DNA from: Sulfurimicrobium lacus
GTDB lineage: Bacteria; Pseudomonadota; Gammaproteobacteria; Burkholderiales; Sulfuricellaceae
Length of the DNA: 64,000 nt
Assembly (NCBI RefSeq): GCF_011764585.1
Contig: NZ_AP022853.1
Location: 1,843,501-1,907,500 of the forward strand
Reading direction: 5' to 3'
Under the pieces are notes generated by a model. That model made no database searches. It was not told the origin of the DNA and worked only from the letters and a program-made list of their open reading frames with translations. Below are positions 14,716 through 51,155 of this stretch, piece by piece (within the stretch, counting starts at the first letter, position 1; each line of letters opens with the position of its first letter). A program made the position numbers and the translations under genes.

Positions 14716-16224
14716 TTAGCGCAGTAGGCTCAACACGGAGTTTGGCAAAGAATTGGCCTGCGCCAGCATCGCCGTACCTGCTTGCTGCAGAATCTGGGAA
14801 CGTGTCAGGTTTGCAGTTTCTGCCGCGAAGTCCGCATCACGAATACGGCTGCGCGCGGAAGACATGTTTTCCGATGTCGTTTGCAGGTTGTTGATGGTCG
14901 CTTCAAAACGGTTTTGCAACGCGCCAAAACCGGAACGCTGGCTGTTGATGGCGGTCAGCGCCATATCGGCAATGCGCAGTGCTTGGGTTGCTCCTGCAGT
15001 AGTCGTGATATCGATGGTCGAGACTGACTGTAAGGATGACGCCACTCTGCCATTCGCTGCCAAAGCCGCGCCAAATACGCCCGATGTCAGGGCAGCACCG
15101 GTGCTGACTACGGAATATGACTTGTCGGAATCCAAGTTGACTTGTCCTCCAACCACAAGATTTCCGCCATATGGAACCGCATCTACATAGGCTTTTGTCA
15201 TGGTGATGCCGCCCGCAGTCATGTCGCCTGCGGTCGTATTGGCACCCGTCGCAACCAAAGCGATATTATATCCCTCCGCCTGGGTTAGCACGATGCCGGT
15301 CGCTCCGTCCAGCTTGGCGGAAATGCCAGTCGTGCTTGCGGCATTGTTGAATGCCGAGACCGCCTGGGAGAGGCCCTCCGCTCCGGTGGGCGACGAAATC
15401 GAGAAGGCAACGTTTGCCGCAGTTGTGTTCGATCCATATACGTCGAGCGCGTAGCTGCCTGATGCGCTCAAAGTCAACGTGGTTTCGGTAAAGGCTGCAG
15501 CTTTCACCCCTGTCTGGCTCACAGTATTAATTTTTGTCGCAACATCCCGCGCGGAATCCGTTACGGCCAGCGTAATGGATCCGCTCCCGGTTGCGCCATT
15601 GATGGTGGCCGTACCCGCAGTGCTTACTACCTCGCCTGTCTGCAGTGTCGCCAGGGTAGTGCCTGCATTATACAAACCAACCGAGCGGGTGTTCTGCTTG
15701 CCAATTTCATACGTTCCATACTGGGACGTCAGGAAGTTAGTAGTGGTCGCGGTAATGGTTTGATTGGCATTGGCGCCGACTTGATACACGGCAGAGCCGA
15801 ATGTGCCGTCGAACAGTTTTTGTCCGTTGAACTCAGTCGTGCTCGCGAAGCGGCTCAGTTCCTGGTTAAGTTGCGTGGCTTCCTGATTCAGCGCCTGGCG
15901 GTCGGATGCGGTATTGGTCGCGTTGGCGGCCTGCACCGCCAACTCGCGGATACGCTGCATCAGGTTGCCCATCTGCTCCATCGAACCTTCCGCTGTCTGG
16001 GCGAGGGATACGCCGTCGTTAGCATTACGACGCGCCTGGTCCATGCCACGAACCTGGGTGGTGAAACGTTCGGAAATCGCCAAACCGGCAGCATCGTCCT
16101 TTGCCGAGTTGATGCGCAAACCGGAGGACAAACGCTGCAACGATGTCGTCAGTGAAGCTTGGCTGGCGTTAAGTTGCCGTTGCGTGTTGAGCGATGGAAC
16201 GTTGGTGTTGATCGTTAGTGCCAA
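14716..16224 (-). CDS. fliC: Flagellin (copy 1)
   Basis: A 502-residue flagellin, the structural subunit of the flagellar filament. Conserved D0/D1 regions lie at about residues 1-165 ([21 protein letters not shown] start, [34 protein letters not shown]) and at about 410-502 ([22 protein letters not shown], ending NSVLSLLR). The middle is a Thr/Ser/Ala-rich variable domain, suited to O-glycosylation. It is transcribed leftward, away from the glycosyltransferase genes, and is the mirror partner of the flagellin at 39488-40984, with nearly identical ends and a divergent centre. A sigma-28-like promoter lies upstream. The ATG at 16224 follows GGAGAACA. Confidence 0.96.
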   Translation of the reverse strand: MALTINTNVPSLNTQRQLNASQASLTTSLQRLSSGLRINSAKDDAAGLAISERFTTQVRGMDQARRNANDGVSLAQTAEGSMEQMGNLMQRIRELAVQAANATNTASDRQALNQEATQLNQELSRFASTTEFNGQKLFDGTFGSAVYQVGANANQTITATTTNFLTSQYGTYEIGKQNTRSVGLYNAGTTLATLQTGEVVSTAGTATINGATGSGSITLAVTDSARDVATKINTVSQTGVKAAAFTETTLTLSASGSYALDVYGSNTTAANVAFSISSPTGAEGLSQAVSAFNNAASTTGISAKLDGATGIVLTQAEGYNIALVATGANTTAGDMTAGGITMTKAYVDAVPYGGNLVVGGQVNLDSDKSYSVVSTGAALTSGVFGAALAANGRVASSLQSVSTIDITTTAGATQALRIADMALTAINSQRSGFGALQNRFEATINNLQTTSENMSSARSRIRDADFAAETANLTRSQILQQAGTAMLAQANSLPNSVLSLLR

Positions 16225-19296: not shown

Positions 19297-21798
19297 ATGA
19301 AAAATGAGCTTTCGTCCGGATTGAATGCGCTGCTGCAGCAGGGATTGGCCCATCACCAGGCCGGTCGTCTCGCCGAGGCGGAAGGACTCTACCGCCAGGT
19401 GCTGGCCAGCGCACCTCAGCACCCTTACGCCAATAACTACCTGGGCGTGCTGGCATCCCAGGTAGGGCGACACGATGTCGCGGCAGATCTGCTTCAGCAG
19501 GCTGTCCGGGCCGATGCGCGGGTGCCGGAATTCCACAACAATCTGGGACTTGCCCTGCAATCTCTGGGCCGTCCTGAAGAAGCCGAGGTGTCGTTCCGCC
19601 AGGCCATCCGCCTCAATCCTAAATTTCCCGAGGCGCACAACAACCTGGGCACGGTTCTGCAGGAGCGGAAACGCTTCGAGGATGCGGGCAAGGCCTTCGA
19701 ACAGGCGCTGAGGCTCCGGCCGAATTATGCCGAAGCGTGGTTTAACGCGGGGAATGTGAATTTCCTTGGCGGCAAATATGAGGTGGCCGCCAAACGCTTC
19801 GAGCAGGCCATCAAATTGAAGCCGAACTACGCCAAGGCCTATTGCGGGCTGGGGCAGGTGCAGCAGCGTCTGGGCTTGATGGAGAAGGCGGAAAAGGCCT
19901 TCCAGAAAGCGCTGGAACTGCAACCCGATTTCGCCGAGGCTCATGGCAATTACGCCGCCTTGCTGCGGGAATCGGGCCGGCTTGATGAAGCGGAAAAGGC
20001 TTCTCGCAGGGCGCTGGAACTCAATCCGAACAAGGCGGAATCCTGGAATGGGCTGGGGGAGCTACATCAGCTTCTTGGGCGGATGGGCGAGGCCGAGGCA
20101 GCGTTTCGCAGGGCGATCGCGCTCAAGCCGGATTATCCCGAGGCGCACAACAATCTGGGCGTGTTGCTGGTAGAAAATGGACTGTTGGAGGAGGCGCTTA
20201 AAAGTTACCGGACAGCGCTGGAAATCAGGCCGGGATTTTTTTATGCACTGAATAATATCGGCATTGTCTACGCCAGCATGGGTCGCCTGCAAGACGCCAT
20301 GGACTGCTACCGAGAAGCGTTGGCGCTGGATTCGTCTTTTGCCATGGCCCACACGAATATGGGCAATACCTATTATGAACTCGGGCAACTCGATCGGGCG
20401 CGCGAATGTTATACGCAGGCCCTGGTGGCCAATCCGGATGAGGACGTCACCCTGAGCAACTTGGGAAATGTTCTTCTGGGAGAAGGGAAACTGGAGGATG
20501 CCAAAATAGCACATCAGCGGGCGTTATCCCTCAACCCGACGAACGCTGTGGCACACAGCAACCTGATTTTTTTGATGGATTTCGATGCTCAGGCTACAAC
20601 CGAGAGCCAGCAGGAAGAGCGCAAGAAGTGGAATGCACGGTATGCCGCACCGCTGCAGCAATTATGGCGAGCGCACGCCAACGATCGCGACCCCAATCGC
20701 GTATTGCGGGTTGGCTACGTTTCCGCCGATTTTCGCATGCACTCGGCGGCGTATACCTTTGAGCCCATGCTGTGTGGTTATGACCGGGAAAATTTCGAAG
20801 TCTATTGTTATTCCAATTCGCCGCGTAACGACCAGATGACGGAGAAACTCCGCAATTGCGTCACTGGTTGGCGCAATATCGTGGGTAAAAGCGATGCGGA
20901 TGCGGATGCAATGATTCGTGCCGACAAGATCGACATACTGGTGGATCTTGCTGCGCATTCCGCCGGGAACAGGTTGCTGTTGTTCGCGCGCAAACCTGCG
21001 CCGGTCCAGGTGACGGGCTGGGGGCATGGCCACGGTACCGGGCTGGATGCCATGGATTATCTGTTTGGCGATCCGGTTAGTATTCCTCCCGATGAATGCC
21101 ACTATTTTGCAGAGAAGATCGCCTACCTGCCATGTTTAATTCCCTATGCCTGCCCGGACAATTCGCCACCTGTCGCACCTCTGCCGGCAATGAAGAATGG
21201 CTATGTTACTTTCGGTTGTTTTAGCCGGCTGGTGAAAATCTCTGAATCATCGCTCGCACTTTGGGCGGAGATTCTTCTCGCAATGCCTGAAGCCCGTCTG
21301 ATTGTTAAGGCCAAGGAACTTGACGATGTGACGCAGAGGCTCAGGATCGCCGATAAAATGGCGGAGTGCGGTGTCGGCGCAGAGCGCCTGACCTTGCTTG
21401 GGCGAACCTCCTGGTACGAGCATATGGCAGCTTACGGAGCGGTGGACATCGCCTTGGATCCTTTTCCTCATGGTGGCGGGATTGGCACCTTCGAGGCCCT
21501 GTGGATGGGGGTGCCAGTGGTGACGCTCAAAGGGCCGTCCTTGCCCAGTCGTGTAACTGCCGCCATCGAAACCGCACTTGGCCTTGAAGACTGGGTCGCA
21601 GATAATCGAGAGGCTTATCTGGTGCTGGCGAGGAACAAGGCTTCCAATCCTCGTGCGCTGGCTGAATTGCGAGCGAGGTTGCGCGAGCAAGTCAAGGCGT
21701 CACCCGCCGGCAATCCTGTCACGATAACGGGAATGGTCGAGCAGAATTATCGGAAAATGTGGCGAGAGTGGTTGACCAACAAGGATGTCCAAAAATGA
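19297..21798 (+). CDS. TPR-containing SPINDLY/OGT-type protein O-glycosyltransferase (GT41)
   Basis: An 833-residue protein. About twelve TPR units (residues 8-430, many with the PxFAEAHxNLG pattern) precede a GT41 catalytic region from about 468. Signatures are RVGYVSADFRMHSAAY (with the active-site His), DILVDLAAHSAGNRL, PVQVTGWGHGHGTG, FGCFSRLVKIS, and DIALDPFPHGGGIGTFEALWMGVPVV. In GT41 enzymes the TPR superhelix recruits the protein substrate and the C-terminal half transfers a sugar to Ser/Thr. With flagellins nearby, flagellin is the probable acceptor (inference). It is co-transcribed with the genes on both sides: a 9-base gap upstream and a 4-base overlap downstream. Confidence 0.88.
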   Translation: MKNELSSGLNALLQQGLAHHQAGRLAEAEGLYRQVLASAPQHPYANNYLGVLASQVGRHDVAADLLQQAVRADARVPEFHNNLGLALQSLGRPEEAEVSFRQAIRLNPKFPEAHNNLGTVLQERKRFEDAGKAFEQALRLRPNYAEAWFNAGNVNFLGGKYEVAAKRFEQAIKLKPNYAKAYCGLGQVQQRLGLMEKAEKAFQKALELQPDFAEAHGNYAALLRESGRLDEAEKASRRALELNPNKAESWNGLGELHQLLGRMGEAEAAFRRAIALKPDYPEAHNNLGVLLVENGLLEEALKSYRTALEIRPGFFYALNNIGIVYASMGRLQDAMDCYREALALDSSFAMAHTNMGNTYYELGQLDRARECYTQALVANPDEDVTLSNLGNVLLGEGKLEDAKIAHQRALSLNPTNAVAHSNLIFLMDFDAQATTESQQEERKKWNARYAAPLQQLWRAHANDRDPNRVLRVGYVSADFRMHSAAYTFEPMLCGYDRENFEVYCYSNSPRNDQMTEKLRNCVTGWRNIVGKSDADADAMIRADKIDILVDLAAHSAGNRLLLFARKPAPVQVTGWGHGHGTGLDAMDYLFGDPVSIPPDECHYFAEKIAYLPCLIPYACPDNSPPVAPLPAMKNGYVTFGCFSRLVKISESSLALWAEILLAMPEARLIVKAKELDDVTQRLRIADKMAECGVGAERLTLLGRTSWYEHMAAYGAVDIALDPFPHGGGIGTFEALWMGVPVVTLKGPSLPSRVTAAIETALGLEDWVADNREAYLVLARNKASNPRALAELRARLREQVKASPAGNPVTITGMVEQNYRKMWREWLTNKDVQK

Positions 21799-22895
21799 GT
21801 GAAAGCAAAAATCTGACTTTGGGTGAGGCGTTGCAACTGGCCATAAACCACCAGCAACAGGGGAATCTTGCGCAGGCGGAAGAACTTTACCAACGCATTC
21901 TTCAAGCGATTCCCGAGCAGTTGGACGCATTGAATTTGCTCGGATTACTTTATTCGGATCAGAAGCGTTACGCCCTGGCTGAAGACTTGTTGCAGAAAGC
22001 CATTCGAATTAACCCCAATATCCCGGAGATACATAACAACCTCGGTGTTGTTCTTGAGGAGCAAAAAAAACTGGGGCAGGCCGAGGCTAGTTATCGGCGA
22101 GCTATTGCCATCAAGCCGGATTATGCCGAAGCTCATAACAATCTGGGCAATGTCTTGTGCCTTCAAAATCGTTTGGCAGACTCGCTTGCCTCCTACCAGG
22201 AAGCAGTCAGGCTACGTCCTGAATATATCAAGGCATGGAACGGTTTTGGGACTGCATTGAAGCAGATGAATGACCTGGAAGAAGCAGAAACATGCTTTCA
22301 GCGAGTTTTACAACTGGATCCAGGCTTCGTGCCAGCACTGAAAAATATGGGTGAGGTGAAGGCATTGCAAGCGCGGCTGGATGATGCAATAAGCTGGTAT
22401 ACGAGAGCCTCTGAGCTGGCGCCAGACGATTCGGATACTAGCTTGAGCATGGGCCTCTTGCTGCTCAAGCAGGACAAGATGGAGGAGGCCGCAGCCTGCC
22501 TGCGAAAAATACCCGTGGAGGACAGGCGGGGGTGGGATGTTTATTTGCTGCTGGCCGACATATACCGTGGACTGAAGCGCCTGGAAGATGTAATTGCCAG
22601 CTACCGCTCGCTATCGGGCAGCTATCCCGACCGCTTCGACGCGCACTTTCTGCTTGGCAAAACACTCTGGACCCACGGTGTAAAGCTAGTTGATGGTGAA
22701 AAAACGCAGGCTCTTGAAGAGGCGGTCCTCGCTTTCAAAAAAGCTTTCGTGCTGCATAACGATGCGGACGTACTCACCAATATCGGTAGTGTGTGCGTCG
22801 AAATGAAAGAATATGAGATTGCGGCCGAATACCTTCAGAAGGCGCTTGGGTTGAATCTGGAAAATGTGGAAGCAGAGTACTGCTTGTTCAGGTAA
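21795..22895 (+). CDS. TPR-repeat protein, 366 aa
   Basis: A protein made almost entirely of TPR units (from LGEALQLAINHQQQGNLAQAEELY to EYEIAAEYLQKALGLNLENVEAEYCLF), with no glycosyltransferase or sulfotransferase domain. The ATG at 21795 overlaps the previous stop (ATGA), and an in-frame upstream extension to 21759 is ignored. It ends soon after a complete TPR. Homologous island genes often continue into a catalytic domain, so it could be a shortened TPR-transferase or a stand-alone adaptor. It is less GC-rich than the two genes before it. No terminator was seen, and the next gene is convergent. Confidence 0.75.
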   Translation: MSESKNLTLGEALQLAINHQQQGNLAQAEELYQRILQAIPEQLDALNLLGLLYSDQKRYALAEDLLQKAIRINPNIPEIHNNLGVVLEEQKKLGQAEASYRRAIAIKPDYAEAHNNLGNVLCLQNRLADSLASYQEAVRLRPEYIKAWNGFGTALKQMNDLEEAETCFQRVLQLDPGFVPALKNMGEVKALQARLDDAISWYTRASELAPDDSDTSLSMGLLLLKQDKMEEAAACLRKIPVEDRRGWDVYLLLADIYRGLKRLEDVIASYRSLSGSYPDRFDAHFLLGKTLWTHGVKLVDGEKTQALEEAVLAFKKAFVLHNDADVLTNIGSVCVEMKEYEIAAEYLQKALGLNLENVEAEYCLFR

Positions 22896-23128
22896 TTAAA
22901 TTCCAGGTCTACAAGACATAGAGTTCCCATCTGCAAGGGCTTTGCCGATGAAGTCCACCAGGAAGATATCGCGCCTTTTGTCCGAATAGCAGCGTTGTAT
23001 CGGATAGTATGGCCCATCCACCTTGATGGTGCCGAAAGGTCCCTTGAAGTCGCAGGACGACGTTTGGCTAAGGCTCCAGAAACCGCGACTAGGACCGCGC
23101 AACCCATTCCCTTCACTGCGGGTCAGCC
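22896..23128. other. Intergenic stretch of unknown content
   Basis: 233 bases between the TPR gene and the sulfotransferase pseudogene. The minus strand holds a 68-codon frame (22896-23102) with a protein-like pattern (DFKGPFGTIKVDG) but no clear ribosome-binding site or start, and I cannot assign it. It may be a remnant of a lost gene or insertion element. No terminator hairpin or promoter was recognised. Confidence 0.3.
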
Positions 23129-25239
23129 TCAGTGTGTTCCAAATCGCAGAATCGAATCAAAGCCGAGCGCTGCCAGGCGCGCGGGCAGTCCGGGCGCGTT
23201 GGCAAAAACTGCCAAGTCGAGCATTTCTTTGTGGTAGGGCTGAAAGGAATTTCGGCTTAAGCGGTGTTCCGGCAGGGGAATGTGTTGATCTTGCCCCTCA
23301 GCCTTTTTGCGTTCGCGCATAGCCTCCTTGTCGGTGGCGGCGACGATTTCTTCGATTTTCCCCGGGGGCAACTGAAGTCCTATTACTTGCACTATTCTCT
23401 GCATCGCAGTGCGTTTTTCGCCGGTGAGCTGTTCGTAACTCAATAGAAGGGCATTGCCGGACTGTACCAGCTCAAGCATGCTATCCATCTGTTTAATCAG
23501 GGGGATCGCACCCATCCATGTCAGTCTGGGCGATGTGAATCCAGAAATCATCAAAGACAGGCATTGTTCAACGGATTTTCCCTCGAAATAGTCGCTGCCG
23601 ACGATGGATCGGCCGATTGCGGCATCCACATCACGGGTCAAGTGGGTGTACATGGACAACAGCACATCGTAGATGTTGCGGATGAGGAAGATATTCTTGG
23701 CTTGGGCGCCCTTGAGGAGTGCTATGGATTGCGGCGTCAGGACTGAATGCCAGGAAAAAAATGTTCCGGATGGGAATTCGATCAGGTTCGCATCCGCATA
23801 ATCCGGTTCGCCAACGCCGATTTCCGGCTCATGGGATTTGAGCCCCGTGGCCATCTCCAGAATGTCGCGCAGCAGCCATGTGCCTGATTTTGGTATGGAA
23901 CTCACGAATATCGGCCTGCTTATCTTGCCGGCCACCGGGGCCATGCTTATCGGATGTCGCGTAATATCCTTCAGGTCATAACCAAACGCCGAGTAAACAT
24001 CAATGGCCTCCGGCGAAACCAGTTTGCGGAAAGCGTCCACTTTCCAGCCAGGCCAACTTTGCATCAGCTGAGCCGGCTCGCATTCGACCGGCGCTTCCCC
24101 GCGGAACAGGGTATGGCGCATGGAATAGGCGCGGTCCAGGTCCTCCTGATCGAACTTTACGCGGTTGCGAGTCAAATAAGTGGCCAACGTCTTGAATATG
24201 GCGGGGTTCTCGGCAACCACCTCGATGGGTAGATGGTGTTGCACCGCATTGATATCGCCCAGTATGTTGTTGAGCTGGAACATGCCTTGGTAGCTTGCCC
24301 AGACATCGATTTCATCCTTGGCGTAGGGCCGCAATCCCAGATACTCGAAATAGGCATGGCAGGCGACTTTCCATTCCCACGCAAGGGGGTCGGAGGCGCC
24401 GGCGCGCATTCTCATATTGCTGGCGCGCCAGCGGACGTAGAATTCCAGCCACGCCACGGGGTGGCGAACGAGATTGACGACGGGAATGTTTTTATAGCGT
24501 TCAACGTTCAGCAGTTCCGGCATCTGCCCGGCGCGGTAGGAGTAGCAATCGCCAATGGATGAATAGGTCATCCCCATGTCGTTCAGGAATTCTGTGAAAG
24601 GAACCAGCGGCGGGCGTTCTCCGCGAGTCCTTTCTTTCAGGTATTTCGGGCGGGATCCCTCATGGGCGAGCAGGGCGAAAATGTCCTTGTGGGAATTCAG
24701 CGCCTTGGGAAACCAGCCGAACAGATGGTCGGCCGCGTAGCCCCATGCGGTGACGTAGAAGACGCGGTATTCATCCTTTAATTCGCTTCGCGTCTGTACA
24801 TTGAAATCTCTGTGGAGGGTGACAGGTTTTTGTTCCATTTGGCTTGCGCTTTGAACTGTTCGGTTTGTAGGAGGAGCATCAGACCATGAAACGAAATATG
24901 TTGCCCGTTGAGCATCGTCCACATCGGGGGCATCTATCAAAGCCAAACCAGCGAGCGCGCGGACATCCTGTGGATTTAAAGCAAGGGCCTGTTGGTAATG
25001 CAACCGTGACGCGCCCCATGCTTCTATCTCATTAAGCGCATCCGCGAAATCGTTATGCCTTTCAGGGGCTAGGGTTCAAGTGCTAGCGCGGCAGCAAAGG
25101 CCGAGACCATGCGATCGAAAGCTCCAACATGACGATAAATCTCTCCCATCAATGCTTGGGCAGGGGCGTAATTGGAGGCCAACGCCAATAGTGTCCTGTC
25201 CAGCTTGCTCATCAGCGCTGCCAACTCATTTTGTCTCAT
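23129..25239 (-). pseudogene. TPR-sulfotransferase gene broken by IS fragment and frameshift
   Basis: The intact part (23129-25003, 624 codons) encodes the end of a TPR region (HYQQALALNPQDVRALAGL) and two sulfotransferase-like regions. The second has the PAPS-binding loop SIPKSGTWLLRDIL and the 3'-phosphate-binding RNIYDVLLSMYTH. Upstream, TPR coding continues (AAALALEP) in a different frame, with a stop at 25069-25071. Restoring one base near 25060-25080 joins both frames. Still further upstream the frame runs into the first 15 codons of an IS1595-type transposase (ATG at 25239), so the native start is gone. The only start left for the catalytic part is a TTG at 25003. It probably once sulfated a glycan or flagellin and may now be silent. 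Confidence 0.7.
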
Positions 25240-25343
25240 CTCGTTCCCCACGTACTCGCGCCCTGCGCGACATGGGGACAGTATCCGCGTCCCAGAGCTC
25301 ACTAGATGAGCCCGTCACTACCTAATGTAACTAGAGCCTAATT
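25197..25343 (-). mobile_element. IS1595-type element remnant (one terminus)
   Basis: These 147 bp are identical to 27763-27909 of the nearby complete element. They include the terminal inverted repeat (TAATGTAACTAGAGCC), the transposase ribosome-binding site and its first codons. The rest of the element is missing, and the fragment is fused to TPR coding sequence of the sulfotransferase gene. Confidence 0.92.
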
Positions 25344-26192
25344 TTATTTCTTTGCGAAAGCGAAACGCCGGCCACCGCTCTGAAAATCAGGCGGCACTAT
25401 TCCCTTGTTTGGGATCAGTTGCACTTTGTTGAATCCGCCATGTTGAAATAGTGTTATTAATGCATCTTCCGTAGGCCACAATTCAAGATCATAAATTCCT
25501 GCCGTATGAGATTTGGTGCTATCAACTCGAATATAGAAGGCGGCTTCACTCGGCTGATAATTGGGACGATTATCAAATCCTGTTAAGCGGGGTTGGGCGA
25601 TAACCGTTTCGGATATGCAGGAATGTCTGGCCACTCTCCCGATAGCGCGAGCCATCTCAAATGGATTGAGAACGTGGTACAACAAACCCATAAAAATGAC
25701 TATGTCGTAACTATTATCATTCTGGCTGAGAAACTCATCTACTGTTGAATGTACAAAGTTCGCTTTAGCACCATAGACTTCACATGCGAATTGGGCTTTC
25801 TCGATATTCAAAGGGCGGTTTTCAACACAGGTAATCTCCCGAAAACCCATCGCCCAAAGCGCAACCGCCATTGCACCTTCTCCAGCACCAAGATCAAGAA
25901 CGGAAAGATCAGCATAGTTTGCCGGAACATTTTCTTGAATGATGGAAACCAACATATCGCGGCGCCATGGGTGCATCTGCTGCACTGGCGTATAGGTCGG
26001 CGCAATGATGCCGTGACCAAAATCAAAAGGAAATTGCCACCCTCCATTAGGGCACCAGTCGCTGTCTTTTGCGGCAAGTGCTAAATCAGTAGTGCGTTGC
26101 TGGATATACTCCGGCAAGAGCAAATTATGAGGCGTGATTTTAAGTGTTGAAAAAGAACTCCCCGCCCACGAACCCTCACCATAACCATCCAT
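25344..26192 (-). CDS. Class I SAM-dependent methyltransferase
   Basis: A 282-residue Rossmann-fold methyltransferase. Motif I VLDLGAGEGAMAVAL binds SAM, the acidic end of beta-2 is CVENRPLNIEKA, motif II/III is YDIVIFMGLLYHVLNPFEMARAIGRV, and a YxRVDS-like segment follows. The substrate is unknown; a sugar or lipid is likely from the surrounding glycosylation genes. The ATG at 26192 is preceded on its strand by AAGGGA. Base composition is visibly more AT-rich than the flanks, suggesting separate acquisition. Its stop lies directly at the end of the IS remnant, and the other side of the patch is closed by the complete IS. Confidence 0.82.
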   Translation of the reverse strand: MDGYGEGSWAGSSFSTLKITPHNLLLPEYIQQRTTDLALAAKDSDWCPNGGWQFPFDFGHGIIAPTYTPVQQMHPWRRDMLVSIIQENVPANYADLSVLDLGAGEGAMAVALWAMGFREITCVENRPLNIEKAQFACEVYGAKANFVHSTVDEFLSQNDNSYDIVIFMGLLYHVLNPFEMARAIGRVARHSCISETVIAQPRLTGFDNRPNYQPSEAAFYIRVDSTKSHTAGIYDLELWPTEDALITLFQHGGFNKVQLIPNKGIVPPDFQSGGRRFAFAKK

Positions 26193-26327
26193 TCTTAATT
26201 CCCTTCGTTATTGAAAATAAGTTCCTAGGTCAATACCCAGAAACGTACGTAGATTGTGCGCTAGTATTAATTAACTTTCTTCGGAAAGCCAATAGTAATT
26301 CGACAACATTCTGTAAAGGAAAAAATC

Positions 26328-26768
26328 ATGAAAAAGATGTACTCAATTTTGGTTGCTTGTTGTTTGTCGCTATCATTTAACGCATTTGCCGGAAGCGGTA
26401 AGGCCATAGTCCCAATGTTTGGCGCAGATACCACGCAACCGGATTGGCAAAGGACCAATATCTTTTTATCAAACATTACTACTCACGCGCTAAATGTACA
26501 AATCACTGTTTATCAGGAAGATGGTACGGTAGTGCCTAGCTCTAGTCTGACCTATGTAAATTTTCAAAATTCAAATACTCAAATCGGGGCAGGTAAAAGT
26601 GCTTATCTTAAGATAGATACCGTCGGATGGCATTTTGGCTACGCTATCGTGCAATGGCAAAATTCAGGGACTGATCAAGACGCGGTAGGGTTGGTGGGAG
26701 CTGCACAGCGGCAGCAAGCGTTAGAGTGGGGACACTATATTCCCGTAAACAACGGGATACCTTTCTAA
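26328..26768 (+). CDS. Small secreted protein, 146 aa, unknown function
   Basis: It begins with a clear Sec signal peptide (MKKMYSILVACCLSLSFNAFA, cleavage likely after AFA). The mature part of about 125 residues is rich in Thr, Asn, Gln and aromatic residues with alternating beta-strand-like patterns (TNIFLSNITTHALNVQITVYQEDGTVV) and has no Cys. The AAGGA ribosome-binding site is 7 bases before the ATG. I do not recognise the family; a beta-sandwich periplasmic or surface protein is plausible. It is AT-rich, like the adjacent methyltransferase, and is followed by a hairpin that ends 10 bases before the IS. Confidence 0.72.
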   Translation: MKKMYSILVACCLSLSFNAFAGSGKAIVPMFGADTTQPDWQRTNIFLSNITTHALNVQITVYQEDGTVVPSSSLTYVNFQNSNTQIGAGKSAYLKIDTVGWHFGYAIVQWQNSGTDQDAVGLVGAAQRQQALEWGHYIPVNNGIPF

Positions 26769-26788
26769 ATTTCGAGGTAAGAATTGAA

Positions 26789-26815
26789 GATCAGGAAACC
26801 CAACACTTCCTGATC
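26789..26815 (+). terminator. Hairpin after the secreted-protein gene
   Basis: A perfect 9-base stem (GATCAGGAA at 26789-26797 with 26807-26815) and a 9-base loop. The T-tract is short, and the IS begins at 26826, so the insertion may have displaced part of it. Confidence 0.5.
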
Positions 26816-26825
26816 GATCATGTTT

Positions 26826-27904
26826 GGCTCTAGTCACATTAACCGATGATGCACTCACCCTCTAGCCGCCATGGCCAGCAACGACGCCGGATTCAGCGGC
26901 TCGCCGCGATACCGGTCGATAGCTCGGAACCAACCCAGGTAACTGTCGAGTTACTTGGTCGCAACGCCGTTGAATCGGCGCATCCAGGTCTTGAGCCTGG
27001 AATCGTAAGCGTTCACGTTCTGGACATGGTAAACCCCGGCGACAATGCGGATGCCGCTGGAGAGGTTGACCGGGCGATGGGTAACACCCATCTCGCGCGC
27101 GGCGGCAGTGAGCACGCTGCTGCCGTCAGTGCACAGAATCGTGTCCCTCGGCAGAAGGGGCTTCAATGCGGCGGCCACATGGGCATGGTCGTCTGCCTCC
27201 AGCACGAAGTCGGCGGTACTGCCGGCGCGATCGCGCGCGACCAAGACTGGAACCTGTTCCTTGGAAAGGCCGCGCTTTGTGGCCTTTCCACCCCGGTGGC
27301 GCGGATTTCGCCCGAGGTCCTTGCGTTGCCCTTTGCTGGAGCGCAAGAAATATGTCTCGTCACTCTCTGCAATCCCCACCAGGACTCGAGCCTGTACGGT
27401 TTTCGGCGTCGCCAAAAACCGGTGGCGCCAGCGGAACGCGGTCGGTCGCGAGACGCCGAGGCGTCGGGAGGCCTCGGTGAGCGACAAGCCATCTCGCAAG
27501 GCGGCCGTCTGATCGAGCCATTTTCCCTTCATCCGAAGGCGGGCAAGCGGCGTGCCCGTCAGTGCGTTGAAGCTCCGTCCGCACACCCGGCTATACCGCT
27601 GCAACCCATCGGCCATCCTGTTCTTGACGGTCCCCTTGGGGCAGCAATGCGGACAGGCCGCCCTTTCGCCGGCGGTGCTTTCGATCGTTTTGATCGACGC
27701 CATTCGGCGCTCGCTTGCAGTGAGTTCCGCGGTAACCGCCTGCCGCTGCGACCGTGTCAATTTGTCCAGCTTGCTCATCAGCGCTGCCAACTCATTTTGT
27801 CTCATCTCGTTCCCCACGTACTCGCGCCCTGCGCGACATGGGGACAGTATCCGCGTCCCAGAGCTCACTAGATGAGCCCGTCACTACCTAATGTAACTAG
27901 AGCC
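26826..27904 (-). mobile_element. IS1595-family insertion sequence, 1079 bp
   Basis: It is bounded by 16-bp inverted repeats, GGCTCTAGTCACATTA at 26826-26841 and the complement (one mismatch) at 27889-27904. It contains one transposase gene on the minus strand. The 8-bp flanks (TCATGTTT on the left, TAATTAGT on the right) do not match, so no target duplication is seen. This suggests a rearrangement after insertion, perhaps with the partial copy at 25197-25343. Confidence 0.85.
26951..27805 (-). CDS. IS1595-family transposase, C-terminus lost to a nonsense codon
   Basis: A 284-residue DDE-type transposase with an N-terminal zinc-ribbon region (ACPHC; the second half reads RYSRVCGRSFN, so one expected Cys is replaced), a helix-turn-helix (LSLTEASRRLGVSRPTAFRWR) and the ISXO2-like catalytic core (GIAESDETYFLRSSKG, ILCTDGSSVLTAAA, VNAYDSRLKTWMRRFNGVATK). 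Translation stops at a TAA at 26951. The same frame continues for 31 sensible codons (LDSYLGWFRAIDRYRGEP...) to a TGA at 26855-26857. The expected YLDSYLGW implies a TAC-to-TAA change. The ATG at 27805 follows GGGGAACG. The enzyme may be inactive. Confidence 0.85.
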   Translation of the reverse strand: MRQNELAALMSKLDKLTRSQRQAVTAELTASERRMASIKTIESTAGERAACPHCCPKGTVKNRMADGLQRYSRVCGRSFNALTGTPLARLRMKGKWLDQTAALRDGLSLTEASRRLGVSRPTAFRWRHRFLATPKTVQARVLVGIAESDETYFLRSSKGQRKDLGRNPRHRGGKATKRGLSKEQVPVLVARDRAGSTADFVLEADDHAHVAAALKPLLPRDTILCTDGSSVLTAAAREMGVTHRPVNLSSGIRIVAGVYHVQNVNAYDSRLKTWMRRFNGVATK

Positions 27905-27941
27905 TAATTAGTTGCCAATGACCGTGCCGATCAGACACTCT

Positions 27942-29162
27942 TCATTTGCCTAAATCATTAATTATCTGTTGCGCGCGATGATGCCAGCAGTGCCGTTCGC
28001 GTATGACCTCCGCCGCTCTAAATCCTGCCTCTATTCGTTTTTTGTCGTTTTTCAGCCAGCGATGAGCTTCTTCACGGATATTTTCAGGGGTGAACATGCC
28101 ATAGTGAATACCGGGTTCGAATGCGGTCAGCATTCCCCCAGGCTTGTCGTCATGAGGAGATGCATGGGTGAAGATGAAGCCGCCCACCGCCATGCATTCA
28201 AAAGTCCGGCTGTGCAGTCCGAGTCCATGGGTATTGTTTGCCAGGTTGATTCTGGAGCGCCGGTACACGTCGAGCAGGCCGCTCTGGGTTTCAATCATGC
28301 CATGGGCGTAGGGCTGGAACATGGGATGGGACGCCCATCCTGGGCCGTAAAGTTCCAGCGACTTGGAAACTTGGAGGATTTCCGTGATCAATGCCACGCG
28401 GTCGAGCAGGCGTGGATATTCCCTGGTCAGGTAATTGATATCAGCCTTGACGTGGGGAAGGGAGCTTTCATCCAGGTCAACGCTCTTGAGCATTTCCGTG
28501 GTCAGTTCGTGAATGTCCAACTCGCCCCGTAAAGGGCGGTAGGTATCTTCAACAACGTTTTGATATATGTTTTCTATTATGTTGCGAAGAGCCAGAGACG
28601 TCAGATTCTGAATAGGCTTCCCGGCTAGGCGTTGCGCGGCCACGTTTCTGGCTATTTGTGGTGTCGTGTCGGGCGGGCGGGGGATAAATCCACACAATGA
28701 AAAATCGACTTGGTCAGAATGAATGGGCCGGTCGCGGGAGTTGATAACGGCCTGGTCCACGCCGGTTACCAGAGACCCCACGTAACAAGGCAGTGCGGTA
28801 TGGAGGCCGAGGACTCCCGCGTCACCCAATGCATAGAGAATATCCGAGGCTTCGAAGCCTTCCGCAAAGCCTTCGAGAGTTTCCGGGAAAACGTCCTGGA
28901 ACCATGCAATATGGCGGACATGGGAAGGCAGGGGCGTGTTGGGGTCACGCGTGCGGTTGACTTGAATGACGACGTCGATCGACAGGTTTTCGCACATCCG
29001 CAACAGTGCGATGGGCGCCAGTGGAGCGAACAAGGCGTGGGCATGGTGGCCTAATACGTGAAATCCATTGGCCAGTCCCTTCACCATGCGCTGATCGTAT
29101 GCATTGGGGTGGTTGGGAACGATCAATATCCGCAATAGCTTATTGGGGGTCACCCTGTTCAT
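27942..29162 (-). CDS. CgeB-like glycosyltransferase
   Basis: A 406-residue GT-B-fold protein resembling the CgeB/glycosyl transferases-group-1 type found in surface-polysaccharide loci. The N-terminal part has LRILIVPNHPNAYDQRMVKGL and HIAWFQDVFPE. The C-terminal half carries the donor-site region LELYGPGWASHP, RSRINLANNTHGLGLHSRTFECMAVGGFIFTH and a typical C-terminal helix. Donor and acceptor sugars cannot be read from sequence. It is the last gene of the minus-strand operon, 12 bases after the radical SAM gene, and its stop lies 37 bases from the IS inverted repeat. Confidence 0.78.
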   Translation of the reverse strand: MNRVTPNKLLRILIVPNHPNAYDQRMVKGLANGFHVLGHHAHALFAPLAPIALLRMCENLSIDVVIQVNRTRDPNTPLPSHVRHIAWFQDVFPETLEGFAEGFEASDILYALGDAGVLGLHTALPCYVGSLVTGVDQAVINSRDRPIHSDQVDFSLCGFIPRPPDTTPQIARNVAAQRLAGKPIQNLTSLALRNIIENIYQNVVEDTYRPLRGELDIHELTTEMLKSVDLDESSLPHVKADINYLTREYPRLLDRVALITEILQVSKSLELYGPGWASHPMFQPYAHGMIETQSGLLDVYRRSRINLANNTHGLGLHSRTFECMAVGGFIFTHASPHDDKPGGMLTAFEPGIHYGMFTPENIREEAHRWLKNDKKRIEAGFRAAEVIRERHCWHHRAQQIINDLGK

Positions 29163-29174
29163 CAGCGGACTGCC

Positions 29175-30566
29175 TCAGATAAAGTTGATGTGCTCGGGCG
29201 GATTTTTCATATCCCAAAGGAATTTGTTGACGTAATCCTGGCGGCAGCCAATCGCGCAATCCTTGTGGACATCAACCGATTCGGACACATCGCGATGAAC
29301 CGCCCAATAGCGGTCGCCCATCACCATGTCAAAAAATGACTGTTCATGGAGGTCGCCGATGTAAAAGCGGTCCTTGTTGAAGAAGGGTCCGCAGGGGTAA
29401 ACCTTGCCGTTGCCGGATATTTGTAAAACGAACGGCGTTCCGTAACAGACATCGTATTTTCTGAAACCGTCCTTGTATAGCGCAGACTCCGTTCCCGCCC
29501 TGATTTTGTCCCATTTCACCTGGACCACATAATCGTCGGTGGACAGCTTTTCCACTTCTTTCAGCACGTCCTCGATTCTCAGGTAATCCTTGTAATCGAT
29601 GCCGATTTCCTTGTATTCGGAGTCGGAGCAATGCTTGATCACAAAATAGTCCACCCCAAGTTCTTTGCCCAACTCGGCTTCCTTTACGACTTGGTCGTAG
29701 CATTCCGGGATCAGCACCATCTGCAGACCGAGGGTGCACTTGTAGCCGTTTTCCTTCTTGATTTTTACCAGGGCGCGGATTTTTTCGACCAGTTCATCAA
29801 AGTTGTCGGCCTTGGACTGGTGCACACGCTGGAAGCCGTCTCGCTCGCCCGCGGATAAATTAAATCGAATCCATGACATGTCGCGCAAAATGTCATGCGC
29901 GCGATCCATATCGAGCAGCAAGCCGTTGGTCGCCATGGAGGTATCTATACCAAGTTTTCTTGCCAGTACCGCTGCATCATAGACCGCAGGGTTAAGCGTT
30001 GGCTCGCCATCGCCGATAAATCCGATCGAGCGTACCCCCAGTTTGCCGCAGTCCTCGATGTATCGAAGTAGCGCATCGCGCTGGATCATGGTGCCCTTGG
30101 TCATGTTCTGCACGACGGCATAACAGTAAAGGCAGGCGGTGTTGCAGAACTTGGTCAATCCCATGTCCACGTGGACCGGTGCAAAGCGCTCCCCGCGTTC
30201 CCACGCAGCGATTCGGTCCAGGTGATACATGAGCTTGTGACCGTCAAAACGGAATTTTTCTTTTTTGTTCCGGAAACTAGGCCCAGTGAACGTATTCGGG
30301 GCATCGGCTTCACCATCTTTTTTCCAGGATTTATCCCAGCGGATGATGCCTACCTGTCCCGCTTCCTCGACGAATTGCACTTCCTGGCCCTCTGGGACGG
30401 CAAGTTTCCGGGAATCTTCCAGTTCCTTGTTTTGCTTGGCCAGCGCGCTACGGTCGACGATGACGTTAGAGGTCCTGAGCTTATGTCCCGGTTGGTTTGC
30501 CAGGGGGACATCGTTGGGGATATCCGTTTTGGCCGTTTCGCCGAAACGGTTTGTTTTATCTGTCAT
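29175..30566 (-). CDS. Radical SAM protein C with SPASM-like C-terminus
   Basis: A 463-residue radical SAM enzyme. VDMGLTKFCNTACLYCYA holds the CxxxCxxC ligands of the SAM-cleaving 4Fe-4S cluster (about residue 130), and IGFIGDGEPTLNP is the GGE-like SAM-binding motif. The C-terminal part has several Cys (YDVCYGTPF, KVYPCGPFF, DCAIGCRQDYVNKF) that could hold auxiliary clusters, as in SPASM proteins. It ends PPEHINFI, like the paralogue at 32663. An extra N-terminal region of about 100 residues is not found in the paralogue. The ATG at 30566 is preceded by a purine-rich AGCCTCCT-complement ribosome-binding site. The substrate is unknown; a sugar or glycan precursor is inferred from context. 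Confidence 0.83.
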   Translation of the reverse strand: MTDKTNRFGETAKTDIPNDVPLANQPGHKLRTSNVIVDRSALAKQNKELEDSRKLAVPEGQEVQFVEEAGQVGIIRWDKSWKKDGEADAPNTFTGPSFRNKKEKFRFDGHKLMYHLDRIAAWERGERFAPVHVDMGLTKFCNTACLYCYAVVQNMTKGTMIQRDALLRYIEDCGKLGVRSIGFIGDGEPTLNPAVYDAAVLARKLGIDTSMATNGLLLDMDRAHDILRDMSWIRFNLSAGERDGFQRVHQSKADNFDELVEKIRALVKIKKENGYKCTLGLQMVLIPECYDQVVKEAELGKELGVDYFVIKHCSDSEYKEIGIDYKDYLRIEDVLKEVEKLSTDDYVVQVKWDKIRAGTESALYKDGFRKYDVCYGTPFVLQISGNGKVYPCGPFFNKDRFYIGDLHEQSFFDMVMGDRYWAVHRDVSESVDVHKDCAIGCRQDYVNKFLWDMKNPPEHINFI

Positions 30567-30605
30567 AGGAGGCTGTCCATGAATTAGGTTTTTGATTGGG
30601 GTCTG

Positions 30606-31697
30606 TCAAAATGGACCGCTGTATTTGTTATTGGGCACGTCATGAGGTCTGTCGCTTCGAAGCGTTGCAAGCAAGTTGGCGTAATCGATAGGGTTTATAT
30701 CGGCACCGATCAGTTTAACTACAGCATCAGCCACGGTATTTGGACCTGGATAATACTTCTCGGTCATGTACTGTGACGTGGGAGCCGGGTGATCTGGTGA
30801 GGCAATTCGAACCGGGCATGCTTTTAGCGCATCGAATGCGTTCTCAACAACCTGGCTAATTAACTCACCGGCAATGCTACCCGCTCGAGATGCGGTGTCT
30901 GCTACGATCAGTCGTCCGGTTTTCCGAACTGAATCGAGAACACTGTCAATATCAAGGGGGCGCACACTACGCATATTCAAAACCTCTACGCTGATCCCCA
31001 TCGAAGCCAAAGCCTTTGCTGCGGAAAGGGCCTCATAGGCCATATAGGAGAAAGCGGCAATGGTGATGTCCGTGCCTGTGTGCAAAATTTCCGCCTGATC
31101 CAGTGGAATTTGATAATAATCTTCTGGTACTGTTCCTTTGATTGGGTGAAGCCATCTATGTTCAATAAACAGGACCGGGTTTTCGTCCTCTATTGCCGAA
31201 ATGAGCATGCCCTTTGCGTCACGAGGGGTGGTCGGCATGATGACCTTGAGCCCCGGTATCTGTGCAAACATGGCCTGCAGGCTTTGAGAGTGCTGCGGAC
31301 CCTGGCCCCATCCTCGGCCAACGATCATTCGCACAACCAGTGGGACGGTTGCCTTGCCATCGAACATGTAATGCCATTTGGCAGCATTGTTGATCAACTG
31401 GTCCATCGCCAGAATAGCGAAATCAATTCGCTGATGCACCATTACGGGACGCATTCCACCAAGCGCGGCACCGATGCATATCCCGGTCATGCCGTTCTCG
31501 GCCAGTGGCATGTCAAAAACTCGCCGCTTGCCATATTTATCCAATAACCCCGCGGTTGTGTTGAAAATCGCCTTGGGGTCGGGAACGCCTTCGCCAATCA
31601 GAATGACTCGGGCGTCTTTCTCCATCGCCTGGTCCAGGCCCTCTCGAATGGCTTCCGAGAAGTTGATGGTGCGTTTCTTCATATCAAGTTCAGGCAT
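30606..31697 (-). CDS. ThDP-dependent 2-oxoacid dehydrogenase E1 beta-like / transketolase C-terminal subunit
   Basis: A 363-residue beta subunit of an E1-type thiamin-diphosphate enzyme. It has INFSEAIREGLDQAMEKDARVILIGEGV, the cofactor Glu region PLAENGMTGICIGAALGGMRPVM, QGPQHSQSLQAMFAQIPGLKV, and a transketolase-C domain (VLNMRSVRPLDID). The start at 31697 (MPELDMKK) overlaps the alpha gene by 8 bases and has GGAAGG just upstream; the ATG at 31682 is the alternative. It forms a heterotetramer with the alpha subunit encoded upstream. No E2 acyltransferase or E3 gene is present, so a biosynthetic acyl- or aldehyde-transfer role is more likely than a complete dehydrogenase complex. Confidence 0.85.
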   Translation of the reverse strand: MPELDMKKRTINFSEAIREGLDQAMEKDARVILIGEGVPDPKAIFNTTAGLLDKYGKRRVFDMPLAENGMTGICIGAALGGMRPVMVHQRIDFAILAMDQLINNAAKWHYMFDGKATVPLVVRMIVGRGWGQGPQHSQSLQAMFAQIPGLKVIMPTTPRDAKGMLISAIEDENPVLFIEHRWLHPIKGTVPEDYYQIPLDQAEILHTGTDITIAAFSYMAYEALSAAKALASMGISVEVLNMRSVRPLDIDSVLDSVRKTGRLIVADTASRAGSIAGELISQVVENAFDALKACPVRIASPDHPAPTSQYMTEKYYPGPNTVADAVVKLIGADINPIDYANLLATLRSDRPHDVPNNKYSGPF

Positions 31698-32679
31698 AAA
31701 CCTTCCCGCAGGCATCCTCGCTAGTCGGTTTTTTGCTGGAGAGCGCAAATTCGAAGGCGGCTGCGATTTCCTGCCTGATTTCGTCCTCGTATTTTTCAAT
31801 GTCTCGACTAAAGCTCGCATCTTTCAGCGTCAGTTCGGCGGCATGGCTAGCGATGGGGCAGTCACCCATGCCGCTTTCGATTTCCTGTGTCGATCTGTAA
31901 TTCAGGTCGTCGTCAAAATTTGGGCCGCAGTGCTCCCTCCAGCGATAAGTACGGAATTCGATGAACTGGGGACCCCGGCCAAGCCTTGCGTTGTCGATCG
32001 CTTCGCTGGAAATATTCAGGACCTCCTCCACATCGTTGCCGTTGCCGGAAAAAGCCGCCATGCCATGCGCCTCGGCCAGTCGGTAAATCGGTCGGTCGGG
32101 CTGCCGTTCGTTGCGCCGCGTGTAAACGGAGAAATCGTTGTTTTCGCAGACGAATAGCACCGGCAATTTGTGCAGCGCCGCAAAATTCAAGGATTCGTGG
32201 ACGACACCCTCCTCGAAGCAGCCATCGCCGAAAAAAACCACGGTGACTTGATCGCTTTGCTTGAGCGAAGATGCCCATGCGGACCCAACCGCCAGCGGCA
32301 CGGTCCCGCCGACGATAGGCGTAGAGCCCATGAATCCGACATCCAGATCGATGAGATGCATGGAGCCGCCGCGTCCCCCGCAGCATCCTGTGGCCCGGCC
32401 ATACAATTCGGCCAGCATGGCGTTCAAATTTCCGCCTTTGGCAAGATAATGTCCGTGCGCTCTATGGTTGCTGAACACCCGGTCGGTAGGGTGGAGTGCC
32501 GCGCAGACGCCGACGGCGATGGCCTCCTGCCCGATACACAGATGCATCGGGCAGCGCATCTCCTGTTCGGCGTAACGGTCTGCCAACGCCTCCTCGATAC
32601 GCCGGATTCTGAGCATCGATTTGAACAATCTGGCTGGTTGCATTTGTTGCATGGAAAGAAGCTCAGATGAAATTGACAT
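31690..32679 (-). CDS. ThDP-dependent 2-oxoacid dehydrogenase E1 alpha-like subunit
   Basis: A 329-residue alpha subunit. It holds the thiamin-diphosphate motif GDGCFEEGVVHESLNFAALHK...ENN (GDG-N25-NN type), HLCIGQEAIAVGVCAAL, and SNHRAHGHYLAKGG with the family His residues. GRGGSMHLIDLDVGFMGSTPIVGG is characteristic of PDH/acetoin-type E1 alpha. The 5' end overlaps the upstream radical SAM gene by 17 bases and the 3' end overlaps the E1 beta gene by 8, so the three are translationally coupled. With the beta subunit it would decarboxylate a 2-oxo acid (possibly pyruvate) and pass the two-carbon unit to an unidentified acceptor. Confidence 0.86.
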   Translation of the reverse strand: MSISSELLSMQQMQPARLFKSMLRIRRIEEALADRYAEQEMRCPMHLCIGQEAIAVGVCAALHPTDRVFSNHRAHGHYLAKGGNLNAMLAELYGRATGCCGGRGGSMHLIDLDVGFMGSTPIVGGTVPLAVGSAWASSLKQSDQVTVVFFGDGCFEEGVVHESLNFAALHKLPVLFVCENNDFSVYTRRNERQPDRPIYRLAEAHGMAAFSGNGNDVEEVLNISSEAIDNARLGRGPQFIEFRTYRWREHCGPNFDDDLNYRSTQEIESGMGDCPIASHAAELTLKDASFSRDIEKYEDEIRQEIAAAFEFALSSKKPTSEDACGKVYA

Positions 32680-33763
32680 GAGGTACCAGATGCTGGTCGA
32701 TCCGATGCAGGTAGCGATTGACCTCGTCCATCCGGCAATTTACCCGGCAATCCTTTATGTCCAGCTGATCCCGGATAAAGTGGAAGTTCTGGCGTCGTTG
32801 CTCGCTTTCCCAGATGTCCTTGAAGGTGCTCTGGTTGATGTTGCCATACTCGAAGCGTTTGTCCAGAAGGTAAGCACTGCAACCGTAAAGGGCACCGTTG
32901 GCCATCAAATAGGCCCAGACGAAGGGTGTGGCATAACAGCGCGGATAGCGTGTGGATTCCTTAGCCAAGGTTTTTTTCATGGTATGGCCACGAAAAATCA
33001 CCTGGAAGGAATCGGTGTTGTATGCGGCCAGCCTTTCTCCAAGGTGGATCAGAGCGCTGTAGTCCAGGTCGCTGTAAATTCTGGTGTCGCTGCTCAAATG
33101 CTGTGAGTAGGGCTTGATCACCAGGTAATCGAGCCCGATCTCGTCACGACAGATTTGCGCCAGGGTCTCCATCTCGTTCATGTTCTCGGGCAACAGAAGG
33201 GACTGGGCGCCGATGGTGCAGTTCAGGTTTTGCGCCTTTTTCATCGCAACGGCGCGTTTCAGGTTGGCGATCACGCGCTCGAAATCCACTTCCTTAGTCT
33301 GGTGTATTTTGGCGTAGCTGGCGGCGGTTCCTGCGTTAAGCGAGACCTTGATCCAGGAAATGTGGGGCAAAGTTTGCAGGAAGCGTTCGGTCATCGCTAC
33401 GCCGTTGGTGGTAAACGCCACGTCGATGCCGGCTTCTTTGGTGGCGATAACGATTTCGTCAATTTTCTTGTGCAGCAGGGGTTCGCCCTCGCCAGCATAC
33501 ATCACGCTTTTCACCCCCAGGGCACCCATTTCTGCCAAGCGAGCTTTCAGAATTTCTGCATCCAGCATCACTGACTGGTAGCCGATGTAATCCACAGCGC
33601 AGAAAGTGCAGCGATGGTTGCACGCCCCTACCGGGGAGATTTCAATATAAATTGGGTATACCTGCTTTGCCTTTTCCCAGTCATTCCCCACTTCGAGTAA
33701 TTGTGCGGTGCGGGCAGGGTGGTACATGAGTTTGTGGCTATCGATGCCATAGGTGTCAGACAT
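32663..33763 (-). CDS. Radical SAM protein B with SPASM-like C-terminus
   Basis: A 366-residue radical SAM enzyme. EISPVGACNHRCTFCAVDYIG carries the CxxxCxxC cluster (about residues 48-55), and SVMYAGEGEPLLHKKIDEI is the GGE-type SAM motif. The C-terminal Cys (YPRCYATPF, GALYGCSAY, DCRVNCRMDEVNRYL) are spaced like those of the paralogue at 29175-30566, and the final residues HVNFI mirror its HINFI ending. It begins SDTYGIDSHKLMYHPARTAQL, which parallels the internal FDGHKLMYHLDRIAAW of the paralogue. It overlaps the GT9-type gene by 8 bases and E1 alpha by 17 bases. Confidence 0.83.
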   Translation of the reverse strand: MSDTYGIDSHKLMYHPARTAQLLEVGNDWEKAKQVYPIYIEISPVGACNHRCTFCAVDYIGYQSVMLDAEILKARLAEMGALGVKSVMYAGEGEPLLHKKIDEIVIATKEAGIDVAFTTNGVAMTERFLQTLPHISWIKVSLNAGTAASYAKIHQTKEVDFERVIANLKRAVAMKKAQNLNCTIGAQSLLLPENMNEMETLAQICRDEIGLDYLVIKPYSQHLSSDTRIYSDLDYSALIHLGERLAAYNTDSFQVIFRGHTMKKTLAKESTRYPRCYATPFVWAYLMANGALYGCSAYLLDKRFEYGNINQSTFKDIWESEQRRQNFHFIRDQLDIKDCRVNCRMDEVNRYLHRIDQHLVPHVNFI

Positions 33764-44598: not shown

Positions 44599-44650
44599 GT
44601 AAGCTTGTTTCTCCGCGCTCTACGCTATACTCCCGCGCAGGGAGAAAAAC

Positions 44651-47154: not shown

Positions 47155-47156
47155 GG

Positions 47157-48167
47157 TCAGATTTCCTCGCACGCTTCCCGGATCAGCGCCGGGCCGCGAT
47201 ATATGAAGCCGCTATAGAACTGGACCAGGCTGGCGCCGGCAATGATTTTTTCCTTGGCATCCAGTCCGTTCATGATGCCGCCCACGCCGATGATGGGGAT
47301 TTTGTTTCCAAGTGCCAAGCTCAGTTGTTTCACCACGCTGGTTGATTTTGCACGCACCGGTGCGCCGCTCAAACCGCCGGCTTCCTCGCCGTTCGGCAAG
47401 CCGCTCACACCTTCTCGCGACAGTGTGGTGTTGGTGGCGATCACCGCCTCGATCCGGTATTTCAACAGCAAGTCGGCGATCTGGATGATTTCTTCCGTGC
47501 TCAGGTCGGGTGCAATCTTCAGTGCCAGGGGCACGTGCTTGCCATGTGTCTGTGCAAGTCTGGCCTGCTCGTTTTTCAGCGCGTCGAGCAGTGCTTCGAG
47601 TTCGCTCGATTGCTGGAGCTGGCGCAGGTTCTTGGTGTTGGGCGACGAGATGTTGATCGCGACGTAGCTGGCGTGGGCATACACCTTGCGCAGGCAGGTA
47701 AGGTAGTCGTCGGCGGCTTTTTCGATCGGCGTGTCGAAGTTCTTGCCGATGTTGATGCCGAGAACACCGCGATATTTAGCGTTTTCGACGTTTTCGACCA
47801 GCTTGTCCACGCCGTCGTTGTTGAACCCCATGCGGTTGATGATGGCGTTGGCGGGCGGGATGCGGAACAGGCGCGGTTTGGGGTTGCCGGGCTGGGGGCG
47901 TGGCGTGACGGTGCCGATTTCGAGGAAGCCGAAGCCCAGTGCGGCCAGGGCGTCGATGTATGCGCCATTCTTGTCCAGTCCCGCCGCCAGGCCGACCGGG
48001 TTGGGAAATTCCAGGCCCATCACCGTGCGCGGCTTGGGCGGGACTCGTTCGGCGAGGAGGCTGAGCAGTCCAAGGCGCTGAGCGGTTTTCATGCCTTCCA
48101 TGCCGAGATGGTGGGCGGATTCGGCGTCCATTTTGAAAAATATGGAGCGTAGCAGTGAATAGAGCAT
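47157..48167 (-). CDS. pyrD: Dihydroorotate dehydrogenase (quinone), class 2
   Basis: A 336-residue FMN enzyme of pyrimidine synthesis that passes electrons to the quinone pool at the inner membrane. An N-terminal amphipathic helix ([22 protein letters not shown]) marks class 2. Further motifs are [66 protein letters not shown] with the catalytic Ser, and [17 protein letters not shown] for FMN phosphate. It starts 12 bases after the hydrolase gene on the same strand. Confidence 0.95.
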
Positions 48168-48179
48168 GATTGATTTTTC

Positions 48180-48953: not shown

Positions 48954-49030
48954 GTCGCAAGTATGGGGAGGGGGAGCAGTATTGACAAGGCTGGGCGTCC
49001 GAACCGATGTGGTGCGCTAATGTGATGATG

Positions 49031-49047: not shown

Positions 49048-49110
49048 ATTACTTGTGATAACTATCCATGCGTAATATAAATATATATATAAAACAATGC
49101 ACATAAAATA

Positions 49111-51147: not shown

Positions 51148-51155
51148 TACCTGCT

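Follow-up and report, generated by a model that had tools for sequence, protein, structure and literature searches.

Possible remains of an IS1595-family pseudo-compound transposon in a probable flagellin-glycosylation island of Sulfurimicrobium lacus

Introduction

In a stretch of 64,000 nucleotides of the Sulfurimicrobium lacus genome (contig NZ_AP022853.1, positions 1,843,501 to 1,907,500; hereafter the window), two same-direction copies of an IS1595-family insertion sequence (IS), one full (F) and one reduced to a remnant (P), bracket the genes of a class I S-adenosylmethionine (SAM)-dependent methyltransferase and of a small probable secreted protein. The locus raises the question of whether these two genes arrived together between the IS copies or belong to the surrounding gene island. 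An earlier note, made from the sequence alone, had proposed a composite-transposon-like capture followed by deletion, and had held that this patch explains the break in base composition. Here, we class the structure only as possible remains of a pseudo-compound (composite) transposon, because the outer end of the left copy has been deleted. A decayed transposon of this kind, followed by a deletion, beside the glycosyltransferase gene of the island is the account that we judge to have a slightly better than even chance of being correct.

Results

Anatomy of the IS bracket

The two IS copies are connected by an exact 147-bp direct repeat (25197-25343 and 27763-27909, 100% identity, one direction). 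The earlier note had taken all of the left repeat for an IS terminus; the repeat itself is exact, and it consists of 142 bp of IS right end and 5 bp of flank (TAATT), so that the statement that TAATT follows both right ends was borne out. P is 100% identical to IS positions 938-1079. The proposed boundaries and direction of F were confirmed as well (Table 1): its terminal inverted repeats are imperfect, matching at 15/18 terminal bases, and begin with GGC, like those of related elements, and a copy in genome G271 (locus L006, 69% identical) aligns over F positions 1-1079 with ends that agree. The F transposase scored 154.7 bits against the NCBIfam IS1595 model (NF033547, cut-off 75) and 29.2 bits against the Pfam model DDE_Tnp_IS1595 (PF12762, cut-off 27). 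With a transposase type and terminal inverted repeats that fit, F and P belong to the IS1595 family. Because the F transposase meets an early stop ahead of a C-terminal segment that is still open in L006, it is probably inactive, and neither copy is now likely to be capable of moving alone. A search of the genome, a single contig of 3,826,324 bases, found only F and P, 1.5 kb apart, and no third copy, and in plasmids the IS had no more than three partial matches, at 65-73% identity, of which none reached 80% coverage.

Two same-direction IS copies around other genes is the layout of a composite transposon, with a left copy of merely 142 bp; two usable outer ends are not present, the outer end of this copy being deleted. 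On the left side, the transposase start in P and the TPR (tetratricopeptide repeat) part of a sulfotransferase gene form an in-frame fusion, an open reading frame (ORF) of 77 amino acids (25069-25302) that ends at a frameshift about 42 codons beyond the fusion; the sulfotransferase domain remains in one open frame.

Table 1. Coordinates of the features discussed, in positions of the window
Feature	Position	Strand	Description
IS1595-family full copy F	26826-27904	-	1079 bp; from repeat, NCBIfam match, genome search and L006 alignment
IS1595-family remnant P	25197-25338	-	Terminal 142 bp (right end) of the IS, with inverted repeat and transposase start
Transposase of F	26951-27868	-	305 amino acids
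Methyltransferase, class I SAM-dependent	25344-26192	-	282 amino acids, open frame; Pfam Methyltransf_25
Small probable secreted protein	26328-26768	+	146 amino acids; GC 43.8%; no family
Inner 8-bp flank of P	25339-25346		TAATTTTA; first 5 bp common to outer flank of F
Inner 8-bp flank of F	26818-26825		TCATGTTT
Outer 8-bp flank of F	27905-27912		TAATTAGT; alignment with G128 begins at 27909
TPR-sulfotransferase gene	23129-25195	-	5' end cut by P; frameshifted near 25069
MT2 remnant (second methyltransferase, whole in L005)	22923-23084	-	From comparison with L005, 88%
Glycosyltransferase directly right of F	27942-29162	-	Open; 91% amino acid identity to G128
Setting: two flagellin genes with the island (16378-39334) between, then fliD	14716-43524		From Pfam and comparison with G003

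Target duplications and the proposed history

As the earlier note had observed, F lacks a matching target duplication, with the left flank TCATGTTT and the right flank TAATTAGT agreeing at 4/8 positions. For comparison, a protein search of 300 genomes of the order yielded 30 IS loci, the window's own included; a script located both ends in 19 of the others, L006 (= L006/L086), missed by the script, was placed separately, and nine loci had no convincing end pair (L090, L096, L097, L099, L100, L103, L104, L105 and L109, with L104 being the other half of the element of L108). An exact 8-bp duplication was found in 15/20 other related elements with placeable ends, a count biased towards duplications by the script, which picked the best end pair by inverted repeat and flank jointly. 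The remaining five match at 7/8 (L093, L108), at 6/8 (L113) or have no duplication (L088 and L006/L086, each 3/8). The absent duplication at F is a departure from the usual state of its IS group, though not unique to F, and is as expected if one side of F faces the interior of a composite and the other lies outside it.

In the history that we favor, a transposase acting on the outermost ends would have inserted a unit of IS, methyltransferase gene, small protein gene and IS at TAATTAGT, and a later deletion would have taken away 937 bp from the left part of the left IS, together with the target flank on that side and the beginning of the sulfotransferase gene; a gene for a B12-binding radical SAM enzyme may have gone as well. 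Two events, insertion and deletion, would explain the bracket; the frameshift, the early stop in the transposase and the loss of two island methyltransferase genes (MT1 and MT2, described below) would be further events. The capture and deletion of the earlier note is supported by a homology break at F, the cut sulfotransferase gene, the missing duplication, the extreme base composition of the cargo (below) and the failure to find another copy in the genome; movement as one transposon unit we only infer, since the outer flank on the left has been lost and the left site falls in an assembly gap of the relative compared.

Several observations weigh against this history. The closest IS relative, L006, and also L088, lack a duplication just as F does, and the own duplication habit of this IS is not readable from rearranged copies. 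With the left outer target flank deleted, the duplication of the composite itself cannot be seen, and F would present the same picture after one insertion whose left flank fell to an adjacent deletion. A second place with the same pair of methyltransferase and small protein was not found. The shared TAATT is also a loose end: for independent target sites, a five-base agreement is a coincidence of about 1% (1.0% from the position frequencies of 17 related target sites), and 8/544 oriented pairs of such sites agree over these five flank bases.

This coincidence, together with identity that extends 5 bp beyond the IS end, would be accommodated if P were no insertion remnant but a patch of 147 bp that repair had copied from F, taking its right end and five flanking bases. 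As the AT-rich target preference makes a short agreement tolerable, and P resembles an ordinary truncated copy whereas a patch demands an extra, unusual event, we consider a repair patch very improbable. A less remote alternative, which we still rate as improbable, is that a single resident IS recombined with a circular translocatable unit (cargo and one IS) or with incoming DNA, leaving a direct pair without a new duplication. The direct orientation, the 100% identity of the shared part and outer and inner flanks of F that differ, as expected, all fit such recombination, and this route is described for pseudo-compound transposons (PMC12561309). Without the left outer flank it is indistinguishable from transposition, and no free unit or donor was found.

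Comparison with the island of a relative

The relative compared, genome G128, is placed in another family and is one incomplete assembly (86%, 600 contigs). It is 87% identical to the window over 27909-33618 and over the sulfotransferase gene, about 70% over the TPR genes, and 64-77% over the backbone at 44600-64000 (matches of at least 144 bases). One of its contigs (C130, locus L049) matches from 27909 rightwards, after four unaligned bases beyond the IS, and left of the equivalent position it carries the B12-binding radical SAM gene, which had no match in the window, the only place where it was sought. F marks, in this alignment, the break between conserved island sequence and sequence not found in G128. 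Of the empty site that the earlier note suggested looking for, the right junction was found in G128 (87% from 27909), and the left junction lies within an assembly gap.

Four fetched G128 contigs contained no IS copy (one 57-bp match at 72%, E 0.007), and G128 was likewise missing from the genomes that the IS or the small protein matched, in searched samples that should include it. A relative with both cargo genes at this site and no IS, which would have contradicted the earlier note, was not found. Two features of the comparison count against the favored history: the G128 contigs end inside the sulfotransferase and B12-radical-SAM genes, with the left half of the empty site in the gap, and the B12-radical-SAM gene may have been gained in G128 rather than lost in the window.

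A second G128 contig (C457, identical letter for letter to record L005) has the gene order TPR, MT1, MT2, sulfotransferase. In the window, the TPR gene and the MT2 remnant have no MT1 between them, and the genome search found no IS copy at this deletion. Amino acid identity between window and L005 is 65% for the TPR protein and 85% for the sulfotransferase (368 amino acids). For the other proteins compared with G128, it is 97% and 92% for the first and second radical SAM enzymes, 85% and 88% for the transketolase-like proteins, 68% for TPR-GT41 and 53% for TPR-GT9, the first TPR-glycosyltransferase and the lowest of the island proteins.

The bracketed genes

The description of the cargo as an AT-rich methyltransferase gene and its neighbor was upheld by both domain and composition. 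The methyltransferase matches Pfam Methyltransf_25 (44.9 bits, E 1.9e-11), and its stop codon lies 5 bp from P. In the 300 order genomes, it had matches in 174 at E 0.001, those listed being mostly short and weak; among the matches listed, G128 (E 2e-80) is far ahead of the next (E 2e-17). In 349 genomes of the phylum, at E 1e-12, it matched its own genome alone, and a pattern scan of genome contigs returned the G128 contig as the sole match. Searches of phages and viral contigs gave no match, and 17 plasmid records were all below 60% identity, with none covering 80% of the query. The G128 homologue is MT1 of L005, 47% identical over 259 amino acids and different in slot and orientation. By these comparisons, the cargo methyltransferase shares a rare subfamily with the one that the island lost, and it can be regarded as an island-type gene rather than random cargo, because G128 has its relative within this island too, on a contig that is free of the IS. 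It probably methylates a flagellin glycan, and it may stand in for the lost MT1/MT2.

These same results bear on the most serious rival, in which nothing was captured: the methyltransferase and the small protein would be native to the island, and the bracket would have arisen when the IS inserted twice, independently, with deletions next to the insertions. The sole close homologue found is in that same island, next to MT2, a remnant of which is in the window; island proteins diverge unevenly between genomes, down to the 53% noted above; congeners differ at the locus; and an adjacent deletion likewise removes a target duplication. The gene could therefore be native, and its 47% is not far under the least conserved island protein compared, which tells against capture. 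On the other side, 47% is lower than for any other island protein compared (53-97%), slot and orientation differ, and the GC content of the cargo gene is 46.5% versus 54.2% for MT1. In addition, by our estimate two random insertions within 1.5 kb, with none found elsewhere in 3.83 Mb, would occur about 1 in 1000 times if insertion were uniform. We consider native genes unlikely, yet a rival to be taken seriously.

The small protein was called secreted in the earlier note; its N-terminus does resemble a signal peptide, as judged by eye with no predictor run, and it had no Pfam or NCBIfam match. It was found in its own genome only among the 300 order genomes, in 12 others among 369 class genomes as weak matches (E 0.002 or worse), and in no plasmid or viral contig. 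A single-sequence structure model is mostly strands at low confidence (predicted local distance difference test score, pLDDT, 52.5). Assignment as a WD40 propeller (phmmer E 1.5e-13) was rejected, as the matches are repetitive chains with no stretch passing alone in the top eight rows.

Composition of the bracket and its surroundings

The GC and codon-use scan proposed in the earlier note found the cargo to be extreme. The segment between the copies (25344-26825) has 44.3% GC, and its spacer 34%, against a mean of 59.6% in twenty background stretches of the genome (400 kb total), where 0/1860 overlapping 1482-bp windows are as low and the lowest is at 47.8%. Of 236 background ORFs, chosen mechanically, two have a GC content at third codon positions (GC3) as low as that of the methyltransferase gene (GC3 43%), and none is as low as the small protein gene. 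Outside the bracket, a TPR gene (21759-22895) and a transketolase-like gene (30606-31820) are also low in GC3 (5/236 each), and with the bracket excluded, 20.0-25.2 kb and 27.9-36.0 kb have 54% GC, versus 60-63% in the outer parts of the island. The IS bracket accounts for only the deepest part of the compositional break, because the middle of the island is itself low in GC; the wider break lies beyond the explanation first offered. Stretches of 52-55% GC occur beyond the island too, for example at 41-44.5 kb.

The flagellin-glycosylation island

The bracket lies in an island of about 23 kb between flagellin genes at 14716-16224 and 39488-40984, where Pfam identifies TPR-glycosyltransferases, a sulfotransferase, radical SAM enzymes, transketolase-like genes and glycosyltransferases. 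With glycan genes that adjoin flagellin and fliD, this is a probable flagellin-glycosylation island, a role predicted from its genes. When 24 window proteins were compared with 20 kb of each of three congeners, G003 had RmuC, fliD, one flagellin, DUF3025 and FIST together, with no island protein matched at the same locus; in G001, the stretch beside RmuC carries another TPR-glycosyltransferase, 38% identical; and in G007, RmuC alone matched. The right-hand glycosyltransferase was found in 0/7 other genomes of the genus, the sulfotransferase in 0/21 other genomes of the family, and the DNA at 22900-31800 in 0/3 other genomes of the family of G128. The region is, on these comparisons, variable between relatives, and at least part of the island has probably moved between lineages, because it is absent at this locus in G003, yet shared with G128 at an identity (87%) above that of the backbone (64-77%).

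Elsewhere in the window, a repeat of about 110 bp occurs twice (59227-59337 and 2804-2917), recurs in part at a sampled stretch of the same genome (L079), and has many copies in congeners G006 and G007; it had no Rfam match, and no Rfam family was found in the window.

Discussion

Islands for flagellin glycosylation adjoin flagellin and fliD and contain TPR glycosyltransferases, sulfotransferase, methyltransferases and radical SAM enzymes. The island described here resembles them in its kinds of genes and differs by the IS bracket inside it. A more far-reaching proposal, that an IS1595 cassette re-tailored the island with a distant version of the lost MT1/MT2 and a new secreted protein, so that the decoration of the flagellum was swapped in one step, we regard as doubtful; if true, it would tie a transposon scar to a change in flagellin methylation.

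Directly oriented pairs of IS1595-family elements can move as units. In Tn7052 (ISEc69-mcr-2-ORF-ISEc69), transposition was shown by assay, with 8-bp AT-rich duplications (PMC7835479). Like the bracket in the window, Tn7052 encloses two genes between IS1595-family copies, described as lying in direct orientation on the plasmid of the first mcr-2 report, and has AT-rich 8-bp targets. It is intact and was shown to transpose, whereas in the window one IS is cut to 142 bp and the transposase of the other has an early stop; the ISEc69 transposase has 217 amino acids versus 305, and the cargo is mcr-2 and an ORF versus a methyltransferase and a small secreted protein. Tn7560, an ISApl4 pseudo-compound transposon, likewise has two same-direction IS1595-family copies, which lack the 8-bp repeats present at most of the other copies (PMC12561309). 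Its element is of the IS1016 subgroup, with 712 bp and 39 copies in that genome, whereas the element in the window has 1079 bp and two copies found. Both described transposons carry drug-resistance genes (PMC7835479, PMC12561309). The bracket in S. lacus is at most a decayed example of an already known transposon type, one whose cargo would here be a surface-glycan gene; such capture may be one way in which flagellin-glycan islands come to vary.

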